This document shows, in pieces, positions 16,489 to 27,428 of a stretch of 64,000 nt of DNA. Location of the stretch: positions 620,001-684,000 of the forward strand of contig NZ_JAKEDS010000002.1 of the NCBI RefSeq assembly GCF_021462415.1. The letters are read 5' to 3'. The translations under genes and the position numbers were made by a program. How positions within the stretch are numbered: the first letter of the stretch is position 1; every line of letters begins with the position of its first letter. Under the pieces are notes generated by a model. It saw nothing but the letters and a program-made list of their open reading frames with translations, ran no database searches and had not been told where the DNA came from. The DNA comes from Rhodohalobacter sp. 614A. GTDB taxonomy: Bacteria > Bacteroidota > Rhodothermia > Balneolales > Balneolaceae.

Positions 16489-17289
16489 ATGGATCTGAAG
16501 TTAAAGGGTAAAAATGCGATTGTAACTGGTGCCAGTAAAGGAATTGGAAAAGGGATTGCTGAATCCCTGGCTAAAGAAGGGTGTAATGTAAGTATTTGCG
16601 CACGTCACAAAAAAGAACTTGAAGCCACTGTTGAAGAACTGCTTGAATATGATGGCGATATAATATCTGTTGCAGCTGATTTAACGAGAGAAGAAGACAT
16701 TCAAATGTTGGTGGATACTACATTCAATTCCTTTGGTTCAATCGATATTCTTGTCAATAATGCCGGAACTATTGGTAAAGCGGGAACTTTTGATGCAACT
16801 CCTCTTGCTAAATGGAAGGATGTTTTTGAGCTAAATCTATTTTCAGTTGTTTCACTTACCAAGAAAGTTGTACCCTACATGAAGGAAAAAGGGTGGGGAC
16901 GAATCATTAATATTTCTTCTGAGAATGGTTCACAACCTTATCCCGATATGATCCATTACAGTGCCTCAAAAGGAGCTCTCGACAATTTTTCAAAAGCTTT
17001 GTCGAAGGCTGTAGCTGGTGACGGAATTCTGGTTAATACAGTAAGTCCGGCCTTTATTATGACGCCGCTTGTTGAGAATATGATGGAACAGGCAGCAAAA
17101 GAAGAAGGGATTTCCAAAGATGAGGCTATACAATCATTTCTAAAAAATCACCGACCAAATATTGAAGTAGAGCGTCCGGGAACCATTGAAGAAGTGGGAG
17201 AGTTGGTTGCTTTTCTCGCCTCACCCAAATCATCATTTATTAATGGAGCCAATTACCGGGTAGATGGCGGTTCGGTTGCTGCGGAATAA
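16489..17289 (+). CDS. SDR-family oxidoreductase (3-oxoacyl-ACP reductase-like)
   Basis: A 266-residue classical short-chain dehydrogenase. TGASKGIGKGIA is at residues 13-24, NNAGT near 90, the active-site segment IHYSASKGALDNFSKAL near 160 and a C-terminal YRVDGGSV. A long insert after NTVSPAFIMTPLVENMMEQ is typical of the FabG-like group active on sugars or keto acids. The 156 bases before it hold no gene. It precedes the LytTR regulatory region but is separated from it by operator-like repeats and a terminator, so cotranscription is unlikely. Confidence 0.85.
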   Translation: MDLKLKGKNAIVTGASKGIGKGIAESLAKEGCNVSICARHKKELEATVEELLEYDGDIISVAADLTREEDIQMLVDTTFNSFGSIDILVNNAGTIGKAGTFDATPLAKWKDVFELNLFSVVSLTKKVVPYMKEKGWGRIINISSENGSQPYPDMIHYSASKGALDNFSKALSKAVAGDGILVNTVSPAFIMTPLVENMMEQAAKEEGISKDEAIQSFLKNHRPNIEVERPGTIEEVGELVAFLASPKSSFINGANYRVDGGSVAAE

Positions 17290-17352
17290 TTTTTATCAGG
17301 CAAATACGATTTTTTTGTTCTTCATAAAGCTTTGTAACACTTTGAGATAACC

Positions 17353-17380
17353 TTCATCACATCATAAAGCATTTCATCAC
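17353..17380 (+). promoter_or_regulatory. Operator-like direct repeat pair A (putative LytTR sites)
   Basis: Two copies of TTCATCAC start at 17353 and 17373, exactly 20 bp apart. The same motif, at 20-21 bp spacing and the same orientation, occurs before the LytTR operon and before susC. Paired direct repeats about two helical turns apart are the known binding pattern of LytTR regulators such as AgrA. A T-rich promoter-like element (TTATTTATA) begins 34 bp after the second copy, at 17414. Confidence 0.6.
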
Positions 17381-17424
17381 ATTTGTTTTCAGAGCTATCT
17401 GGGAATAAGTAGATTATTTATACA

Positions 17425-17520
17425 AAGATGCCCTACGAAGGCCTGATACCTATCATGATAATTAAAAGGGGAGTAGCTTCCTTTATCATATAAGACCTCA
17501 AGGTATCAGGTCTTTTTTTT
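17425..17520 (+). ncRNA. Candidate small structured RNA ending in a Rho-independent terminator
   Basis: A perfect 10-bp outer stem, CCTGATACCT (17442-17451) with AGGTATCAGG (17501-17510), is followed by a long T run (17512-17520). Inside lies a second stem formed by ATGATA (17455-17460) and TATCAT (17484-17489), extended by AAAGG with CCTTT. No open reading frame of any size lies between the terminator and the promoter-like element downstream of repeat pair A. The 5' end is a guess from promoter spacing. It could also be a leader attenuator, but a second promoter lies after it. Confidence 0.45.
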
Positions 17521-17548
17521 CTGAAAGCCCTGTATCCCAAAATTAAAA

Positions 17549-17597
17549 TTCGTCACACGGTAAGGCATTTCATCACACAAATGGATGTGTTCGTCAC
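17549..17597 (+). promoter_or_regulatory. Operator-like direct repeat triplet B (putative LytTR sites)
   Basis: TTCGTCAC at 17549, TTCATCAC at 17569 and TTCGTCAC at 17590, spaced 20 and 21 bp. The third copy ends 10 bp before the TTTG box of the promoter that would serve the LytTR operon. Confidence 0.62.
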
Positions 17598-17607
17598 TTC
17601 AGTGTTT

Positions 17608-17640
17608 TTTGAACTCATCTGAATTGATAACTTAGGTTTT
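17608..17640 (+). promoter_or_regulatory. Bacteroidota-type promoter of the LytTR operon
   Basis: TTTG (17608-17611), a 21-bp spacer and TAGGTTTT (17633-17640) match the -33 TTTG / -7 TAnnTTTG pattern of Bacteroidota, with one mismatch. It lies just after the repeat triplet and 56 bp before the small lipoprotein start. Confidence 0.6.
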
Positions 17641-17696
17641 ATTTGTATCTACAGAAAGAAGTTGATTACCCGTAACCTTTCTCCGTACGATTAGAC

Positions 17697-17861
17697 ATGC
17701 AATATTTAGTCTCCCAAAAAATCACAGGACTAGTCGTTCTATTTGTTTTTTTTCTCTCATGCGGTACGGGAAAATCCGCCATTGATCATTCTTCATTTGG
17801 TGTAACCTCTCAGGCCAATATCAGTAAAGTTGGTATATCCAAAACCGGGGGAAATGAGTGA
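17697..17861 (+). CDS. Very small lipoprotein (54 residues)
   Basis: A 54-codon frame from ATG 17697 to TGA 17861. It has a charged N-terminus, a hydrophobic stretch (residues 10-20) and a lipobox FLSC with Cys22, leaving a mature peptide of about 33 residues (GTGKSAIDHSS... ending KTGGNE). It is the first gene after the operator repeats and promoter, and ends 6 bases before the degenerate kinase gene, whose ribosome-binding site GAGG overlaps its end. No family recognised. Its position in a LytTR operon suggests a signal, sensor accessory or anchor role, but that is inference. Confidence 0.6.
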   Translation: MQYLVSQKITGLVVLFVFFLSCGTGKSAIDHSSFGVTSQANISKVGISKTGGNE

Positions 17862-17867
17862 GGTCAT

Positions 17868-18962
17868 ATGAAAAAGAACTTAGGGTATATAGTCTTAGCC
17901 ATCTCCGGTTCTATATATATACTCTATAATTTTACTGTTACCAGCTATATTTTGCACCTGATACCGGAAAGAACTCTTGTTCTAAGAGAAACAGCTGTGG
18001 CTGAAATTTCAGCTTTCATTCCTGTTGCCATTCTTTTTATCGGGTTGATGAAGCTCTCACAATTCAGGGAAGAATTATTTAACCGGTTCTCGGCTAAATC
18101 ACTTTTTATTCATTCGTTGATACTGATTTCATTTATTGGGATCCATTCTTTTTGGCAAGTGTTTTCTAATTCACTTCTCATATCGGAGACCAAATTCAGT
18201 TTTGATGCAATTACTGTAGATGCCATGACTTTTCTGAATATGCGGACGATGGTATATGTACTTATTGTGGGATTAATTATCGGCGTAAAGCGTATTGAAG
18301 AGAAAGAGAGTTATACGCTAAAAGAATCGGAACTGAAATTAAAACTTGAACGGGCAAAAATTCGAAAATTCGAGTTAAAACTGAATCCTGATGTCATTTA
18401 CCCCACACTGGAATATGTAAAAGAAAATGCAGAAAAAAATCCGGAGTTATCTTCTCAACTAATTCTCAATTTAAGCAAGCAGATGAGAATTTTAATTGAT
18501 CATCTCAGTGATGAATGTATTCCACTGAACGAGGATGTGCAATTCTTTAAATACTACTTTGAAAGTTTGAATATTCGTCTTAAAAAGAAGATAGAAATTG
18601 ATGTGAAAGTAGATGAAAAACATATGGATATGAAAAATCCATCGCTGGTTTTGCTGGTGCCTTTTTTTGAGAAATTATTTATCGGAGAATATTCAGGATT
18701 TACAAAACAAGTGGAGAAGATAACCTACAGTTCGGGACATACACGGCCCAATGCTGTGGAGCTCTCCATTGAAATATCTCCCGTAGAAAGTATTGTGGAA
18801 CTGAAAAAAGATTTGAAGGATGATGAGCATATACAAGCTATTCAAAATCTCTTAAAATATTATGATGAAAACAGCTCTCTGAATGCAATTTTGGCAATAA
18901 ATACTCTTGCCATTCATCTTACCATTCCATTTGTACCTGTAACAATGGAGGAGTATGCCTGA
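17868..18962 (+). CDS. LytS-like membrane histidine kinase homologue lacking the catalytic histidine (pseudokinase)
   Basis: A 364-residue protein with four probable membrane segments (about 5-28, 48-64, 82-102, 129-144), a short coiled coil and a degenerate His_kinase/HATPase region. In LytS relatives the acceptor motif is NPHFLFN; here it reads NPDVIYPTLEYV, with Asp175 in place of His. The N box, normally LLQPLVENAIKHG, reads LVLLVPFFEKLFIGE, without the Asn, and no DNG or GxGL glycine motifs are seen. It overlaps the next, intact kinase by 8 bases. Probably a signalling partner or sensor subunit of that kinase and not an enzyme. Confidence 0.8.
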   Translation: MKKNLGYIVLAISGSIYILYNFTVTSYILHLIPERTLVLRETAVAEISAFIPVAILFIGLMKLSQFREELFNRFSAKSLFIHSLILISFIGIHSFWQVFSNSLLISETKFSFDAITVDAMTFLNMRTMVYVLIVGLIIGVKRIEEKESYTLKESELKLKLERAKIRKFELKLNPDVIYPTLEYVKENAEKNPELSSQLILNLSKQMRILIDHLSDECIPLNEDVQFFKYYFESLNIRLKKKIEIDVKVDEKHMDMKNPSLVLLVPFFEKLFIGEYSGFTKQVEKITYSSGHTRPNAVELSIEISPVESIVELKKDLKDDEHIQAIQNLLKYYDENSSLNAILAINTLAIHLTIPFVPVTMEEYA

Positions 18963-20115
18963 GAAGATCAAACAAAAAGTATTTCATTCGCTGCCATATA
19001 TCGGTGTGCTGTTTATGATACTTTTTTTAACTACTCTCATACCGGCACTTTACTTTCAAAGCGAGAGTAATATGGAGATAAGTTTTTGGTTTGTCAGGGC
19101 ATTTTTAATTGCGATAACTCCAATTCTATTTATTCCGGCTATCTATTGGATTTCAATAAAAAGGCCTATTCTCCAGAACTGGAAGAACATTCTACTGCAT
19201 GTAGTTTTAAGTGCTGTTTTCTGCTTCTTTTTCCTGCTGATATTTCAACTCACACTATTCTACTTATACCAGGGAAAAAATTTCCTGGCACTTGCCCTGG
19301 AAAGTATTACCAATATTTTAACGCGCCAGTTTTTCTCTGTTGGAACCATACTTTTCTTTGGCTATTGGGGAATTGTGGTTCTTTTTGGCCTGAAAAGATA
19401 TTATGAAGAAGTGGATGACGTGCAGCGAAAAGCCAATGAAATTCAATCTCAGCTTGAACAGGCAACTCTTTCCAGCCTGCAGGCTCAGCTGAAGCCACAT
19501 TTTTTATTTAACACCTTAAGCATGGTTGACCAGATGCTTACTGAAAATCCCTCACAAGCTGTTGCCATGGTTGACAAACTGGAGAGACTGCTTCGAAATA
19601 CTTTCGATCGCAATAACTCTGAGAGTTGTACCATAGAAGAAGAGGTCGAATTTCTTAAAAAATACCTGTCGATTGAGGAGAACAGATTTCAGGACCGGTT
19701 AACGGTTGAATATTCGATCTCCGATAGTACTGAAAATATTATGATTCCACGTTACCTATTACAGCCGCTGGTTGAGAATGCCATTGTGCATGGGGTCGGT
19801 AAGACGATTCAGAAATCTGTAATTTTGATAAAATCTGAATTTTTAGCTGACCAGCTGGTTCTTTCTGTAGAAAATAACGTATCAAGCTTTCGAAGTTTCA
19901 GGCGGGAAAGGTCAAAGGGAATCGGGTTGAATAATGTGGAAAAACGTATTCATATATATTTTGGTGAAGACGCCAGGTTAAACGTATTAAGTTCAAAAGC
20001 CGATGTTTTTAAAAGCAGGATCCTGATCCCTAAAAAGTATTTGTTGGATCAGCAAACAGAGAAAGCAAGAGACCGTTCTTCAAAACCTCAATATCATAAA
20101 TCTCTAAAGCTATGA
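18955..20115 (+). CDS. LytS-type sensor histidine kinase
   Basis: A 386-residue membrane kinase with four N-terminal membrane segments (about 12-34, 44-65, 78-105, 122-145), a coiled coil, and the His_kinase motif LQAQLKPHFLFNTLSMV (His182). The ATP domain has LLQPLVENAIVHG and a GIGLNNVEKRI glycine motif. All residues missing from the preceding paralogue are present here. It overlaps that gene by 8 bases and the response regulator by 4 (ATGA). It should phosphorylate the LytTR regulator downstream. Confidence 0.93.
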   Translation: MPEKIKQKVFHSLPYIGVLFMILFLTTLIPALYFQSESNMEISFWFVRAFLIAITPILFIPAIYWISIKRPILQNWKNILLHVVLSAVFCFFFLLIFQLTLFYLYQGKNFLALALESITNILTRQFFSVGTILFFGYWGIVVLFGLKRYYEEVDDVQRKANEIQSQLEQATLSSLQAQLKPHFLFNTLSMVDQMLTENPSQAVAMVDKLERLLRNTFDRNNSESCTIEEEVEFLKKYLSIEENRFQDRLTVEYSISDSTENIMIPRYLLQPLVENAIVHGVGKTIQKSVILIKSEFLADQLVLSVENNVSSFRSFRRERSKGIGLNNVEKRIHIYFGEDARLNVLSSKADVFKSRILIPKKYLLDQQTEKARDRSSKPQYHKSLKL

Positions 20116-20870
20116 TTCGGGTAATTGTCGTTGATGACGAAAAACACGCACGTAACAAGCTTGCCAATTTGTTAGCTGGTTACGCTGATCTGGACGTGGT
20201 TTCAGTCTGTAAAAACGGTCTTGAAGCTATAAATGAAATCAATAGTAAAAATCCTAACTTGGTTTTCCTGGATATCGAAATGCCTGAAATTGACGGTTTT
20301 CAGGTAATTGAAAATATTGAGTGCGATCCGCTTCCATATATAATATTTGTTACTGCTTTCAGCCATTATGCGGTAAAAGCGTTTGAAGTTGAAGCGCTGG
20401 ACTATATTCACAAACCCATTGACAGGGCTCGAATCAAAAAAAGTATGGACCGATATTTTAAAGTGGCCAGCAATAATGGAAGTATGGATGAGTATGAAGA
20501 GCGCGTTCGAACCGTTTTGAGAGAGGTTGAGAACCACAAATGGCTGGAAAGATTTATCGTAAAGAAATCGGGAGAATATTTCCTGGTGAATGCCAATGAT
20601 GTTTTTTGGATTGAAGCTGACGGCAATTACATAAATATCGTAACGAGTGATTCAAAATACTTTGTAAGGCATACTTTAACCGGGTTTGAAAACCATTTGG
20701 ATTCAGCGCAGTTCTTTCGAATTTCACGATCCGTTATTGTTAATATCGATTGGATTTCAAAAATCGAAGATCATCATTATGGGAATTTTATGATTCAGAT
20801 GAAAAACGGTTCAAAGCTGAAAATGAGCAAGAATTACAGGGGAATACTGGAAGAATTCAAAAACTTTTAG
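20112..20870 (+). CDS. LytTR-family response regulator
   Basis: A 252-residue regulator. The receiver (residues 1-120) has VVDDEKHARNKL, acceptor Asp54 in FLDIEMPEIDGFQVI and DYIHKP; the LytTR DNA-binding domain (about 150-250) has RFIVKKSGEYFLV, DVFWIEADGNYINI and FFRISRSVIVNIDWI. LytTR proteins bind pairs of direct repeats spaced about two turns apart; the TTCRTCAC repeats before this operon and before susC are the obvious candidates. Expected to respond to the tandem kinases upstream. Confidence 0.93.
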   Translation: MIRVIVVDDEKHARNKLANLLAGYADLDVVSVCKNGLEAINEINSKNPNLVFLDIEMPEIDGFQVIENIECDPLPYIIFVTAFSHYAVKAFEVEALDYIHKPIDRARIKKSMDRYFKVASNNGSMDEYEERVRTVLREVENHKWLERFIVKKSGEYFLVNANDVFWIEADGNYINIVTSDSKYFVRHTLTGFENHLDSAQFFRISRSVIVNIDWISKIEDHHYGNFMIQMKNGSKLKMSKNYRGILEEFKNF

Positions 20871-20942: not shown

Positions 20943-20978
20943 GTACACTTTAAAGATTTAAACCATTTTTTAAATCTG

Positions 20979-21007
20979 TTCATCTCACCTCAAAGGGAGT
21001 TCGTCAC
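20979..21007 (+). promoter_or_regulatory. Operator-like direct repeat pair C before susC
   Basis: TTCATCTCAC (20979-20988, one inserted dinucleotide) and TTCGTCAC (21000-21007), 21 bp apart. The second copy is 89 bp before the susC start; the equivalent copy before the LytTR operon is 99 bp before its first gene. Confidence 0.58.
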
Positions 21008-21096: not shown

Positions 21097-24000
21097 ATGA
21101 TTAGAAAGATACTTCTATGTGGGATTCTTTTATTAATTCCATTCTCAATAGCACTTGCACAAACAGGCAGTTTAACAGGTAGAGTTACGGATACCGAAAC
21201 CGGTGAGGTATTACCCGGGGTGAATGTTTTAATTATGGACCTTGAACGGGGCGCTGCAACGAACGTGGATGGTGTTTATACCATCGAAAATATGCCTATG
21301 GGTACCTATTCAGTTAGATTTACCTATATAGGATATCGTCCGTTAACTGAAATGGTAAATATCTCGGCCGGCCAGAACACACTGAATGTGAGCCTTTCAA
21401 TAGAAAGCTATACTCTCAGTGATGTGGTCGTTACCGCAATGGGCCTTGAAAGGTCTGAGCGCTCGCTTGGATATGCCTCACAGCAAGTAAGCGGGGAGGT
21501 ATTGGAGGACGCTCAGGAATCGAATATGGTAAGTGCACTTGCCGGACGCACGGCTGGGGTGCAGATTAACAACTCAAGTGGACAACCTGGTTCATCATCC
21601 CGAATTATCATCAGGGGGAACTCGTCGCTGCTGGGCAATAACCAGCCACTGTTTGTTGTGGATGGCGTTCCCATCAGTAATGAGTCGGACGATAATATTC
21701 AAGGCTCAACCGTATTTACAGGTGGAACCTCAAACAGAGCCCTTGATCTTGACGCAAGTAATATTGAGTCAATGACTGTATTGAAGGGAGCCAGTGCTAC
21801 CGCATTGTATGGTTCGCGGGCTGCTAATGGTGCCATTATTATTACTACCAAAAGCGGTCAGGAAAATCAGAATCCTGTAATCACTTTTAATACATCTGTA
21901 GGATGGTCTGATACATATACCGATGGTTATCAATCGGAGTATCTGGGTGGTACCAACGGCTTTTACTATAATGGGCTGCCAGCGGATCGTGGAGGTTATA
22001 CAAACAATCCCGATGCCGGCGGGACACAGACCAGCCAGAGCTGGGGACCTCACAAGGATGAAGTGCCACAAGAAGTGCTTGATGATCTGGGTGTGGACCG
22101 GATTGAGACGTTCGACCCAAGAGAGCAGTTTTATGAAACCGGGGTGAACCTGAAAAATTCACTAAATCTGAGTGGTGGCACGAATAATTCAACATATTAT
22201 GCTTCAATCAGTAATACCAACCAGGATGGAACCGTGCCGGGCACTGATCTGGAGCGTACCAATGTGATGGCTCGTTTTGGAACTTCCTTAAGTGAAGATC
22301 TGAATGTGGAGACTTCGGTTAACTATATAAATACGTCCAACAGGTGGCTCGCAGAGGGAAATGGATCTCAGGTTTATTTGTACGGTCTGAATTTTACGCC
22401 TATTAATTTCGATCTGTCTCAGCCCTCAACATTTGAAGACGGCACACAGCGGAATTTTTCCACTTCATTTAACAATCCTATTTGGTTATCCGAAAACAAC
22501 GGTTTTACCAGTGATATAAGCCGGTTTATCGTAAACGGTAATATTACTTACAACATCTTGCCTTGGCTGAATGTTTCAGAGCGAATCGGAATCGATACCT
22601 ATACCGATCAGCGAAAAGGCGAAACTAATATCGGTACACGGGGAGTCCCCAACGGTAGTATGTATGATCAGGTGATTAAACGATCGGAAATTAATTCAGA
22701 CCTGATGTTTAATGCCAATTTTGATTTGTCACAGGACATCACTCTCGAAATGATGGTGGGCAATAATATCAATATCCGGGATTTCAGTTCGGAAGAAGTT
22801 ATAGGGACAGGCCTGAATATTCCCGGTTTCTTTCATATCTCAAATGCAAATTCAACAGTACCCAATGAAGATATCACCGAGCAACGGCTGGTAAGCTTGT
22901 TTTCAAGTGCAACAATCGACTATCAGGATATCGTTTATCTGACATTGACAGGCCGAAACGATTGGACGTCAACCCTTCCAACTAATGAAAACTCCTACTT
23001 TTACGGGTCAGCCAGCTTAGGATTTGTCCTTACGGATGCTTTCGAACTGTTTCAAAATACTTTTCTGTCGTACGCCAAACTTCGGGCCTCCATATCCCAG
23101 ATTGGTAATGATGCACCGGTATATTCCCTGTCCACAATCTTTATACAATCTGATCCAAGCGATGGAGTTCGGGGTGTGATCAATTATCCATTTAATAGTG
23201 TAAACGGGTATCGTCTGAGTACTTCGTTAGGAAATCCGGATTTGAAACCTGAAATATCCACCGAATATGAAATTGGCCTGGATCTTCGACCCTTCGAAGG
23301 CAGGGTGAGGCTGGATGGGGCTTACTATAACCGTAAAACTGTGGATCAGATCTTTGATATTCCCACTTCTTCAGCTACCGGTTATACCAGTCGGCTGACA
23401 AACGCCGGAGAATTGAGGAATTATGGGTTTGAGCTCTCTGGCGGGATCTCGTTGATCGAATCCAGAAATTTCCAGTGGGATGTGGATGTGAATTTTTCAA
23501 AAAATACAACTGAAGTGGTAGAATTTGCTCCCGGAGTGGAAAGTATTTTCCTCGGCGGATTCTCCAACCCTCAGATTCGCATTGAAGATACGAAAGATGG
23601 TTATGGAGTGATCTGGGGTATCCGTTATCAGCGCAATGATGATGGACAGTTATTAATCGGTGAAGATGGCCTGCCACTGGTAGCTCCAGACTTGGGACCG
23701 ATAGGTAATGTTTCTCCTGACTGGACCGGTAACCTGCGAACCAGTTTCAGCTTCAGGGGTATCAGTTTGTCGGCCTTGCTGGACAAACGCCAGGGCGGTG
23801 ATATCCTGAACTTTGATCAGTATTATTCCTCGTACTATGGAACGCATGAGGTAACAGCAGACCGCGGATCCACATATATTTTTGAAGGTGTAAATGCGGA
23901 AACCGGTGCCCCAAATGATATCGAAATTGTTCGTGACCAAAACTTCTATCAGGGTCACTACAGTAGTATCTATGAGAATTTCGTTGAAGATGGCAGCTTC

Positions 24001-26665: not shown

Positions 26666-26926
26666 ATGGATGTGAAAACTGTAAATAGCTCCAGTGCTCG
26701 ACAGTCCTTCTCCGATATTCTTAATGATAGTGGGTATGGAGGCCAACGGATCGTTGTCACTCGTAAGGGTAAGGCGGTTGCTGCCGTAGTACCTATTGAG
26801 GATCTTGAAGCCATTCAGGCTTTGGAAGATCACAAAGATGTTGAAGAAGCCAGACGTATTCTCTCAGATTCTAAGAGTGAATTTATTCCCTGGGAGCAAG
26901 CTAAAAAAGAGCTGATTAAAAAATAA
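26666..26926 (+). CDS. Phd/YefM-family antitoxin
   Basis: An 86-residue antitoxin. The N-terminal Phd/YefM DNA-binding fold is visible (VNSSSARQSFSDILND, RIVVTRKGKAVAAVVPIEDLE), followed by an acidic helical tail (KDVEEARRIL, FIPWEQAKKEL) that would wrap the toxin. Ribosome-binding site GAGGTG. The stop overlaps the toxin start by one base (TAATG). It should neutralise the RelE-like toxin and repress this operon through the GTAC sites. Confidence 0.92.
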   Translation: MDVKTVNSSSARQSFSDILNDSGYGGQRIVVTRKGKAVAAVVPIEDLEAIQALEDHKDVEEARRILSDSKSEFIPWEQAKKELIKK

Positions 26927-27189
26927 TGGCTTGGCAGGTAGAAATTGAGCGCAAAGCCCAAAAAGCTCTCAAGAAAATACCTAATCCATTCAAGTCGAAT
27001 ATTATCGAGGCAATTGATCGGTTGACGGAGGATGTAAGGCCTGTTGGAAGCAAGAAATTGAGAGGAGCAGAGGACCTATACCGAATTAGAGTAAATGATT
27101 ATCGAATTGTCTATCAAATTCATGATCAAAAACTGGTGGTGTTAATTGTCCGTATTGGTCACCGAAAAGATATTTATGAGGGGCTTTGA
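26926..27189 (+). CDS. RelE/ParE-family toxin
   Basis: An 87-residue toxin of the RelE superfamily: N-terminal VEIERKAQKALKKIP helix, KLRGAEDLYRIRVNDYRIVYQI core strands and the GHRKDIYEGL end. The LYRIRVNDYRIVY...GHRKDIY pattern is that of RelE-type mRNA interferases. It is translationally coupled to the antitoxin. The pair sits between a tRNA remnant and an intact tRNA-Asn and is the only intact cargo of the putative element. Confidence 0.92.
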   Translation: MAWQVEIERKAQKALKKIPNPFKSNIIEAIDRLTEDVRPVGSKKLRGAEDLYRIRVNDYRIVYQIHDQKLVVLIVRIGHRKDIYEGL

Positions 27190-27356: not shown

Positions 27357-27428
27357 CTCCCCGGGCTGGATTCGAACCAGCGACCGATCGGTTAACAGCC
27401 GATTGCTCTGCCACTGAGCTACCGAGGA
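27357..27428 (-). tRNA. tRNA-Asn (anticodon GTT)
   Basis: On the minus strand a full cloverleaf can be folded: acceptor TCCTCGG with CCGGGGA, D arm with AGCTCAGTGG, anticodon arm around CTGTTAA (GTT, Asn), and T arm GCTGG-TTCGAAT-CCAGC. Discriminator G. CCA is not encoded. The fragment at 25874 carries the same 3' end. Confidence 0.95.

Follow-up and report, generated by a model that had tools for sequence, protein, structure and literature searches.

A candidate LytTR-driven small RNA upstream of a two-component operon in Rhodohalobacter sp. 614A, with predicted pairing to the start of its first kinase gene

Introduction

What is the short, strongly folded stretch of DNA that lies directly upstream of a LytTR two-component operon in Rhodohalobacter sp. 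614A (Balneolaceae), and could it act on the operon that it precedes? The element belongs to a 64,000-nt stretch of contig NZ_JAKEDS010000002.1 (positions 620,001 to 684,000), which we refer to as the window and whose own numbering is used throughout. A first-pass annotation, made from the sequence alone, had noticed here a compact fold with a T tail, flanked on either side by LytTR-type boxes, and both folding and a box search confirm this arrangement. It had also proposed that the element is a small RNA under its own LytTR promoter, reminiscent of agr RNAIII, with susC among the mRNAs to be searched for pairing.

The operon and its neighbours

The genes that surround the element are the following:

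16489–17289, short-chain dehydrogenase gene upstream of the element, with its stop at 17289
17697–17861, + strand, open reading frame (ORF) of 54 amino acids, the first gene of the operon (ORF list)
17868–18962, + strand, HK1, a His_kinase-family gene (domain search and alignment)
18955–20115, + strand, HK2, a His_kinase-family gene whose start overlaps the HK1 stop
20112–20870, + strand, LytTR response regulator gene whose start overlaps the HK2 stop
21000–21007, + strand, LytTR-type box ahead of susC, which starts at 21097 (box search)

The element lies 148–231 nt beyond the dehydrogenase stop, and the intervening DNA holds LytTR boxes and a predicted promoter. The 54-residue product has an N-terminus that we read as lipoprotein-like. 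It has no Pfam match, and a search of 92 family genomes returned two weak matches (E 0.002 and 0.006), both within longer frames, and no convincing relatives. The start of HK1 is supported by one ortholog (L033), in which a Met-Lys-Lys aligns with it. At the position that we take to be the family's phosphoacceptor histidine, all six aligned orthologous HK1 sequences carry Asp or Glu, and HK1 may be a non-catalytic (degenerate) partner of the second kinase.

Downstream of the operon lie SusC/SusD-type genes. The susC box reads TTCGTCAC and is preceded, at a distance of 22 nt, by a weaker TTCATCTC match (20978–21007). It suggests that the SusC/D pair belongs to the same LytTR regulon, though the spacing from this box to a −10 is a misfit. 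Further on, the interval from the SusD gene to a tRNA gene encodes a Phd/YefM antitoxin and ParE toxin pair (26666–27189). A search for Hfq that does recover the protein in 5 of 14 control genomes gave no match in this genome.

LytTR-type boxes and predicted promoters

Two sets of boxes flank the element, each followed by a predicted −10 hexamer:

17353–17380, + strand, box pair A, TTCATCAC at 17353 and 17373 with a 20-nt period (box search)
17410–17415, + strand, predicted −10 (TAGATT) of promoter A, at a 37-nt offset from the proximal box start (from the shared spacing)
17549–17597, + strand, box triplet B, at 17549, 17569 and 17590 (box search)
17628–17633, + strand, predicted −10 (TAACTT) of promoter B, at a 38-nt offset from the proximal box start (from the shared spacing)

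LytTR direct repeats lie about two helical turns (20–22 nt) apart. Pair A, which has a weaker third repeat near 17331, and triplet B, with periods of 20 and 21 nt, both show this spacing. Without a mismatch, the arrangement TTCRTCAC-N12-TTCRTCAC occurs only at A and B in the 4.69-Mb genome; allowing one mismatch adds two more places, and the backwards control gives none. The paired boxes at A and B are not chance. Across 92 family genomes, pairs with a 20-nt period were found at 12 places (2 in the backwards control) and pairs with a 21-nt period at 11 (10 in the control), a near-equality that makes the 21-nt period alone unspecific. Fourteen of the 21 family box-pair loci checked fall inside frames of at least 234 codons. 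Two genomes of the same genus (L098 and L099) carry a 20-nt box pair near position 1500 of their loci, ahead of a gene that we read as TonB-receptor-like, and lack a −10 at the shared offset.

This shared offset was seen by comparing promoters. A −10-like hexamer lies 37–38 nt from the proximal box in seven of the nine promoters examined, namely A, B, both directions at L032, and L034, L035 and L036; L033 and the box before susC depart from this spacing and were excluded from the −10 score. With hand-set −10 weights, base shuffles of the seven promoters score as well in 5 of 2000 cases, and the relatives' promoters alone give the same offset of 37–38 nt. Taken singly, promoter A is weak, as 5% of its shuffles match a −10 at the offset, and for promoter B the figure is 21%. 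The predicted transcription starts are about 17422 (A) and about 17640 (B), which by arithmetic places the centres of the box pairs some 56–57 nt upstream of them. The Bacteroidota-type promoter TAnnTTTG is not enriched before genes of this genome (29 sense and 26 antisense occurrences) and no motif stood out in a two-part promoter search; as no promoter motif was validated in the genome, neither type was used. The independent operon promoter proposed earlier is therefore backed by the box-to-−10 spacing common to relatives, but not by a promoter motif validated in the genome.

Regions A and B also resemble each other. Their alignment score of 68.5 was reached by none of 1000 shuffles (maximum 62.5), and downstream of the boxes the similarity is weaker, with 42 of 1000 shuffles as good. 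This fits the two regions being diverged copies of an old duplication.

A long-stemmed structure ending in a T run

Between the two promoters, folding and a survey of terminators define these features:

17422–17520, + strand, predicted small RNA of about 99 nt (fold, terminator survey and shared box-to-−10 spacing; transcription predicted)
17428–17493, + strand, ORF of 21 codons from ATG to TAA, possibly a chance occurrence (ORF list and shuffles)
17437–17451, + strand, 5′ arm of the outer stem (fold and terminator survey)
17452–17491, + strand, inner hairpin (fold)
17501–17515, + strand, 3′ arm of the outer stem, running into T8 (17513–17520), an intrinsic terminator (fold and terminator survey)

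The structured stretch has a fold energy of −29.5 kcal/mol on the + strand (z = −2.99; 1 of 200 shuffles equally stable), compared with z = −1.58 and 12 of 200 shuffles for the opposite strand. The outer stem, first read as 10 bp with a T9 tail, in fact has 15 bp (17437–17451 with 17501–17515; 13 Watson–Crick and two G–U pairs, six of the pairs being GC) and a T8 run, three of whose Ts are base-paired within the stem. Nine unpaired bases separate the inner hairpin from the 3′ arm, and the stem encloses an interior of 49 nt.

To place this structure within its genome, T runs of at least six were surveyed on both strands of 464 kb of the same chromosome, with the reversed sequence as a control. 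A stem of at least 14 bp with at least five GC pairs and an interior above 20 nt occurs only here; the near misses are one 14-bp stem with four GC pairs and one 12-bp stem with six. The control holds no stem at the level of the element and one at 12 bp. Compact strong terminators (loop of at most 12 nt) number 28 in the same 464 kb, versus this one of the long-interior type. Like an intrinsic terminator, the element has a GC-containing stem directly adjoined by a T run; its 49-nt interior departs from the short loop typical of the strong terminators of this genome. A simple terminator scan misses it owing to a loop limit of 8 nt, and the counts from such simple scans are at chance level in any case (promoters, 14 versus 16.0 in shuffles; terminators, 3 versus 2.9). 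No Rfam family matches the element at the gathering score, the sole such match in the window being a tRNA (27357–27428); under relaxed thresholds, 17290–17870 gives eight matches, every one below gathering. The structured feature is real, and it is unusual for the genome.

The element is not strictly without coding capacity, as had been claimed, since the 21-codon ORF crosses it. An ORF at least as long arises in 6.5% of shuffles. Its start lies about 6 nt past the predicted transcript start at 17422, and its stop codon adjoins a short alternative hairpin in which AAGACCT (17492–17498) pairs with AGGTCTT (17508–17514). This hairpin (−6.7 versus −29.5 kcal/mol) and the 15-bp stem are mutually exclusive and have the 3′ arm in common.

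A LytTR-driven small RNA is our leading reading of the element. The earlier proposal that operator A and its promoter give rise to a short terminated RNA finds support in the shared spacing, in an AgrA-like distance between repeats and start, and in the unusual terminator, and the transcript itself stands as a prediction.

Predicted pairing with the start of HK1

If the element is transcribed, the strongest case for a target comes from the start of HK1. The predicted contacts are as follows:

17428–17435, + strand, unpaired segment of the 5′ tail, with predicted partner 17881–17888 (pairing score −9.0)
17486–17500, + strand, partly unpaired segment, with predicted partner 17859–17871 (pairing score −9.5)
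17859–17888, + strand, predicted target, spanning the Shine–Dalgarno-like GAGG, the start codon and codons 5–7 of HK1

Within the second segment, the core GACCTCA (17494–17500) is unpaired and the beginning belongs to the inner stem; its partner site covers both the GAGG and the ATG of HK1. Pairing of the predicted 99-nt RNA was evaluated at 363 gene starts from 464 kb, roughly a tenth of the genome, so that better targets may lie outside this sample; the score adds to the pairing energy what it costs to unfold the two partners. By this accessibility-weighted measure HK1 comes third of 363, below an FtsX/MacB_PCD protein and a TonB-dependent receptor in single-site pairing. When two order-compatible sites of at most −4 kcal/mol are demanded among the five best sites per gene, HK1 alone qualifies among the 363, a criterion that was picked after the HK1 result was known, so that the two-site figures overstate the case somewhat. 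Laxer thresholds admit 4 (−3), 8 (−2) and 10 (−1) of the 363 genes.

Dinucleotide shuffling of the HK1 start never reproduced the two-site score (0 of 600), nor did shuffling the loops of the RNA (0 of 250, scored against seven genes of the locus). The single-site score was reached by 31 of the 600 HK1 shuffles; among the 250 loop-shuffled RNAs, 3 reached it with HK1 and 13 with at least one of the seven genes. Both strands of the 464 kb were also sampled with a 100-nt window every 200 nt, 4640 windows in all. The two-site value of HK1 was reached once, by 17801–17900, in which the HK1 start itself lies, and the single-site value by 82 windows.

By raw duplex energy without accessibility, HK1 ranks 25th of 370 with the whole RNA and 6th with the interior segment; shuffling that segment gave an equally strong best target in 2 of 20 cases. 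On the same measure susC comes 82nd (whole RNA) and 29th (interior segment) of 370, and it has no two-site pairing with the RNA, which makes susC a poorly supported target; HK1 is the better one. The HK1 start region is partly structured within its own mRNA, and joint pairing at both sites may be strained, as one of the pairing stretches lies inside the loop of the outer stem. The computed support for feedback on HK1 is moderate, and the prediction is specific and testable.

Conservation of the element and of its operon

The element appears to be confined to one lineage. A blastn search of 98 genomes, including its own, returned the element itself as the sole significant match. At E values up to 1 there was some match in 71 genomes, the best non-self one at E 0.014 and a second match in its own genome at E 0.286, and ten match places viewed by eye showed no element-like structure. 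A covariance model (two copies of one sequence, searched under stricter filters) found no significant homologue in 128 genomes of the order: the element itself scores 118 bits, the next match 25.5 bits (E 0.037 for one genome), and seven other genomes have matches at E up to 1. These searches gave no conservation in support of the element. The 25.5-bit match was rejected as a homologue, as it is a hairpin between convergent genes. Two genomes of another genus, identical in gene order here, carry long-stemmed hairpins with a T tail between convergent genes (L064:1501–1585 and L065:1501–1585), and these are probably terminators. An origin as a multi-copy repeat was likewise set aside, since blastn and the covariance model both find one significant copy in the genome. 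The element may thus be lineage-specific or fast-evolving, as judged from these searches.

HK1 itself is more widely found. At 1e-10 it has matches in 11 of 92 family genomes, the window included, and five of the others are matched over most of the length; at 1e-15 it matches 8 of 128 genomes of the order. It has no match in 27 other genomes of the genus or in viral contigs. Orthologs also occur in two Balneolaceae metagenome-assembled genomes (MAGs) and one Rhodothermia MAG, apparently already among the genomes counted. For the dehydrogenase, a search of the same 27 genomes at 1e-60 found nothing, so synteny is no help here.

The element is absent upstream of all five orthologs matched over most of HK1. 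Six weaker HK1 matches were covered as well: about 0.9 kb upstream of one (L040) is a long-loop stem of 11 bp with T5, and about 1 kb upstream of another (L041) is a compact hairpin. Neither is comparable to the element, and both were rejected as counterparts. A clear box precedes HK1 in four of the five orthologs (L032, L034, L035 and L036), reading CTTATCAC in L035, and L033 has only box variants. Box pairs among the 42 loci scanned were found only at the window's own loci and in the nearest relative, L032. There, a further box triplet on the other strand (L032:2761–2883; periods of 20–21 nt, TATACT at the same 37-nt offset) precedes a divergent 160-aa gene, ankyrin-repeat-like by our own reading, so that in the nearest relative, too, boxes precede a neighbouring gene.

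A proposed feedback loop

We tentatively propose, at somewhat less than an even chance, that the element is the gene of an RNA of about 99 nt that is activated by the LytTR regulator and represses the regulator's own operon by pairing with the HK1 start. The regulator encoded downstream would bind box pair A and activate the promoter with the −10 at 17410–17415. The transcript would start near 17422 and, judging by the computed anatomy, end at the 15-bp stem and T8. Its 5′ tail (AUGCCCUA), computed to be largely single-stranded, would anneal to HK1 mRNA at +13 to +20 (0 being the A of the ATG), and the strand preceding the terminator arm (UCAUAUAAGACCUCA), also predicted to be largely single-stranded, would anneal at −9 to +3. 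Such pairing would mask the Shine–Dalgarno-like GAGG and the start codon and block HK1 translation; since the genes for HK1, HK2 and the regulator overlap, this block could lower all three. As the same regulator presumably also drives the operon from triplet B, the RNA would restrain the operon in negative feedback. The fuller version, in which an Hfq-less bipartite contact on a degenerate HK1 closes a LytTR feedback loop through an RNA that looks lineage-specific, is one that we hold still more tentatively.

Other readings of the element

The RNA could be real and act elsewhere. A LytTR-driven RNA that regulates other mRNAs, such as those of the TonB-dependent receptor or the FtsX/MacB-type permease, with the HK1 pairing a chance match, would account for the higher single-site ranks of these two genes; yet neither has two order-compatible sites at or below −4 kcal/mol, and we consider this reading unlikely. 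The same judgement applies to a plain intrinsic terminator that yields no functional RNA and stops read-through from the dehydrogenase gene, or from a spurious promoter A, thereby insulating promoter B. The element is the sole T-tailed stem in the 1.5 kb before HK1 (L031) under the criteria used, and the family's long-stem look-alike between convergent genes looks like a terminator. Against this stand the distance from the dehydrogenase stop with boxes and a predicted promoter intervening, the usually compact build of the genome's strong terminators, and the pairing with HK1, which a terminator does not predict.

Two further readings turn on the 21-codon ORF. That the ORF and the two exclusive stems form a leader or attenuator, tying read-through from promoter A to translation or to a ligand, draws on the existence of both the ORF and an alternative hairpin next to its stop. 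Both stems, however, finish at the same T run and should both terminate, and since both use the 3′ arm of the terminator, neither is an antiterminator. The short stem is also far weaker, the ORF starts almost at the predicted transcript start and has a length that shuffles match, promoter B lies downstream, and no Rfam family reaches its cut-off, all of which makes an attenuator decidedly improbable. Least probable of all, and by our estimate hardly credible, is that the ORF is itself the product, a small hydrophobic peptide (a signal, or toxin-like) made from the LytTR promoter. Its sequence is short, partly hydrophobic and next to a LytTR system, but its length is near chance, there is almost no leader for ribosome binding, and the strong stem begins inside it.

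Comparison with known regulatory RNAs

For the proposed small RNA acting on HK1, four known cases offer comparison. The closest working parallel is the Hfq-dependent pair OmrA and OmrB, which are not adjacent to ompR-envZ; as is proposed for the predicted RNA, they are two-component-activated and repress the operon of their own regulator. In E. coli and Yersinia enterocolitica, they are activated by EnvZ/OmpR and repress the ompR-envZ operon, resulting in negative feedback, and in Y. enterocolitica their pairing is predicted over the ribosome-binding site of the regulator's operon (PMC12692685). The candidate described here differs in having a LytTR regulator, no Hfq match in the genome, an RNA gene directly upstream of the operon, and no homologue found.

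RNAIII, to which the element was first likened, is far longer than about 99 nt. In Staphylococcus aureus it is controlled by AgrA, whose direct repeats are centred near −60; it is divergently transcribed, encodes delta-haemolysin and regulates virulence factors (PMC4227749). The likeness is that of an RNA under a LytTR regulator, with its own promoter beside a LytTR two-component operon and repeats at a comparable distance upstream (about 60 versus about 56 nt), and goes no further. Unlike RNAIII, a long divergent haemolysin-coding RNA, the predicted RNA is in tandem with the operon on the same strand, is about 99 nt, holds only a 21-codon ORF, and is predicted to act on its own operon.

The VirR domain is LytTR-type, and the VirR RNAs resemble the predicted RNA in being transcribed under tandem boxes. 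In Clostridium perfringens, VR-RNA, VirT and VirU are regulatory RNAs under tandem VirR boxes; VirT exerts negative feedback on some VirR targets, and the RNAs of the regulon vary between strains (PMC2838878). They belong to a different phylum and have different targets, and pairing with the virRS start region goes unmentioned in the part of PMC2838878 considered. GibS of Bacteroides thetaiotaomicron (145 nt, with a largely unstructured 5′ part) is raised by N-acetylglucosamine and has metabolic targets, an adjacent operon being among them; two adjacent seed regions pair with start-codon regions, in a genus that lacks any obvious homologue of Hfq or ProQ (PMC7366714). GibS thereby shows the kind of two-seed start-codon pairing, where no obvious Hfq exists, that is predicted for the RNA described here; control by a two-component system is not described in the part of PMC7366714 considered.

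In the open-access papers searched, we found no paper combining LytTR, small RNA, negative feedback, histidine kinase and translation, and none on LytTR direct-repeat binding sites in Bacteroidetes. The predicted two-site pairing of the RNA with HK1 is new here.

Significance

If the proposed loop is true, a LytTR system would be controlling itself by way of an RNA, and this small RNA would come from a lineage for which a literature search (Balneola) returned no small-RNA papers, judged by title. With operators found across related operons and the RNA in one lineage, the locus would be a testable case of RNA origin. It would also offer a clean test of base-pairing without Hfq.
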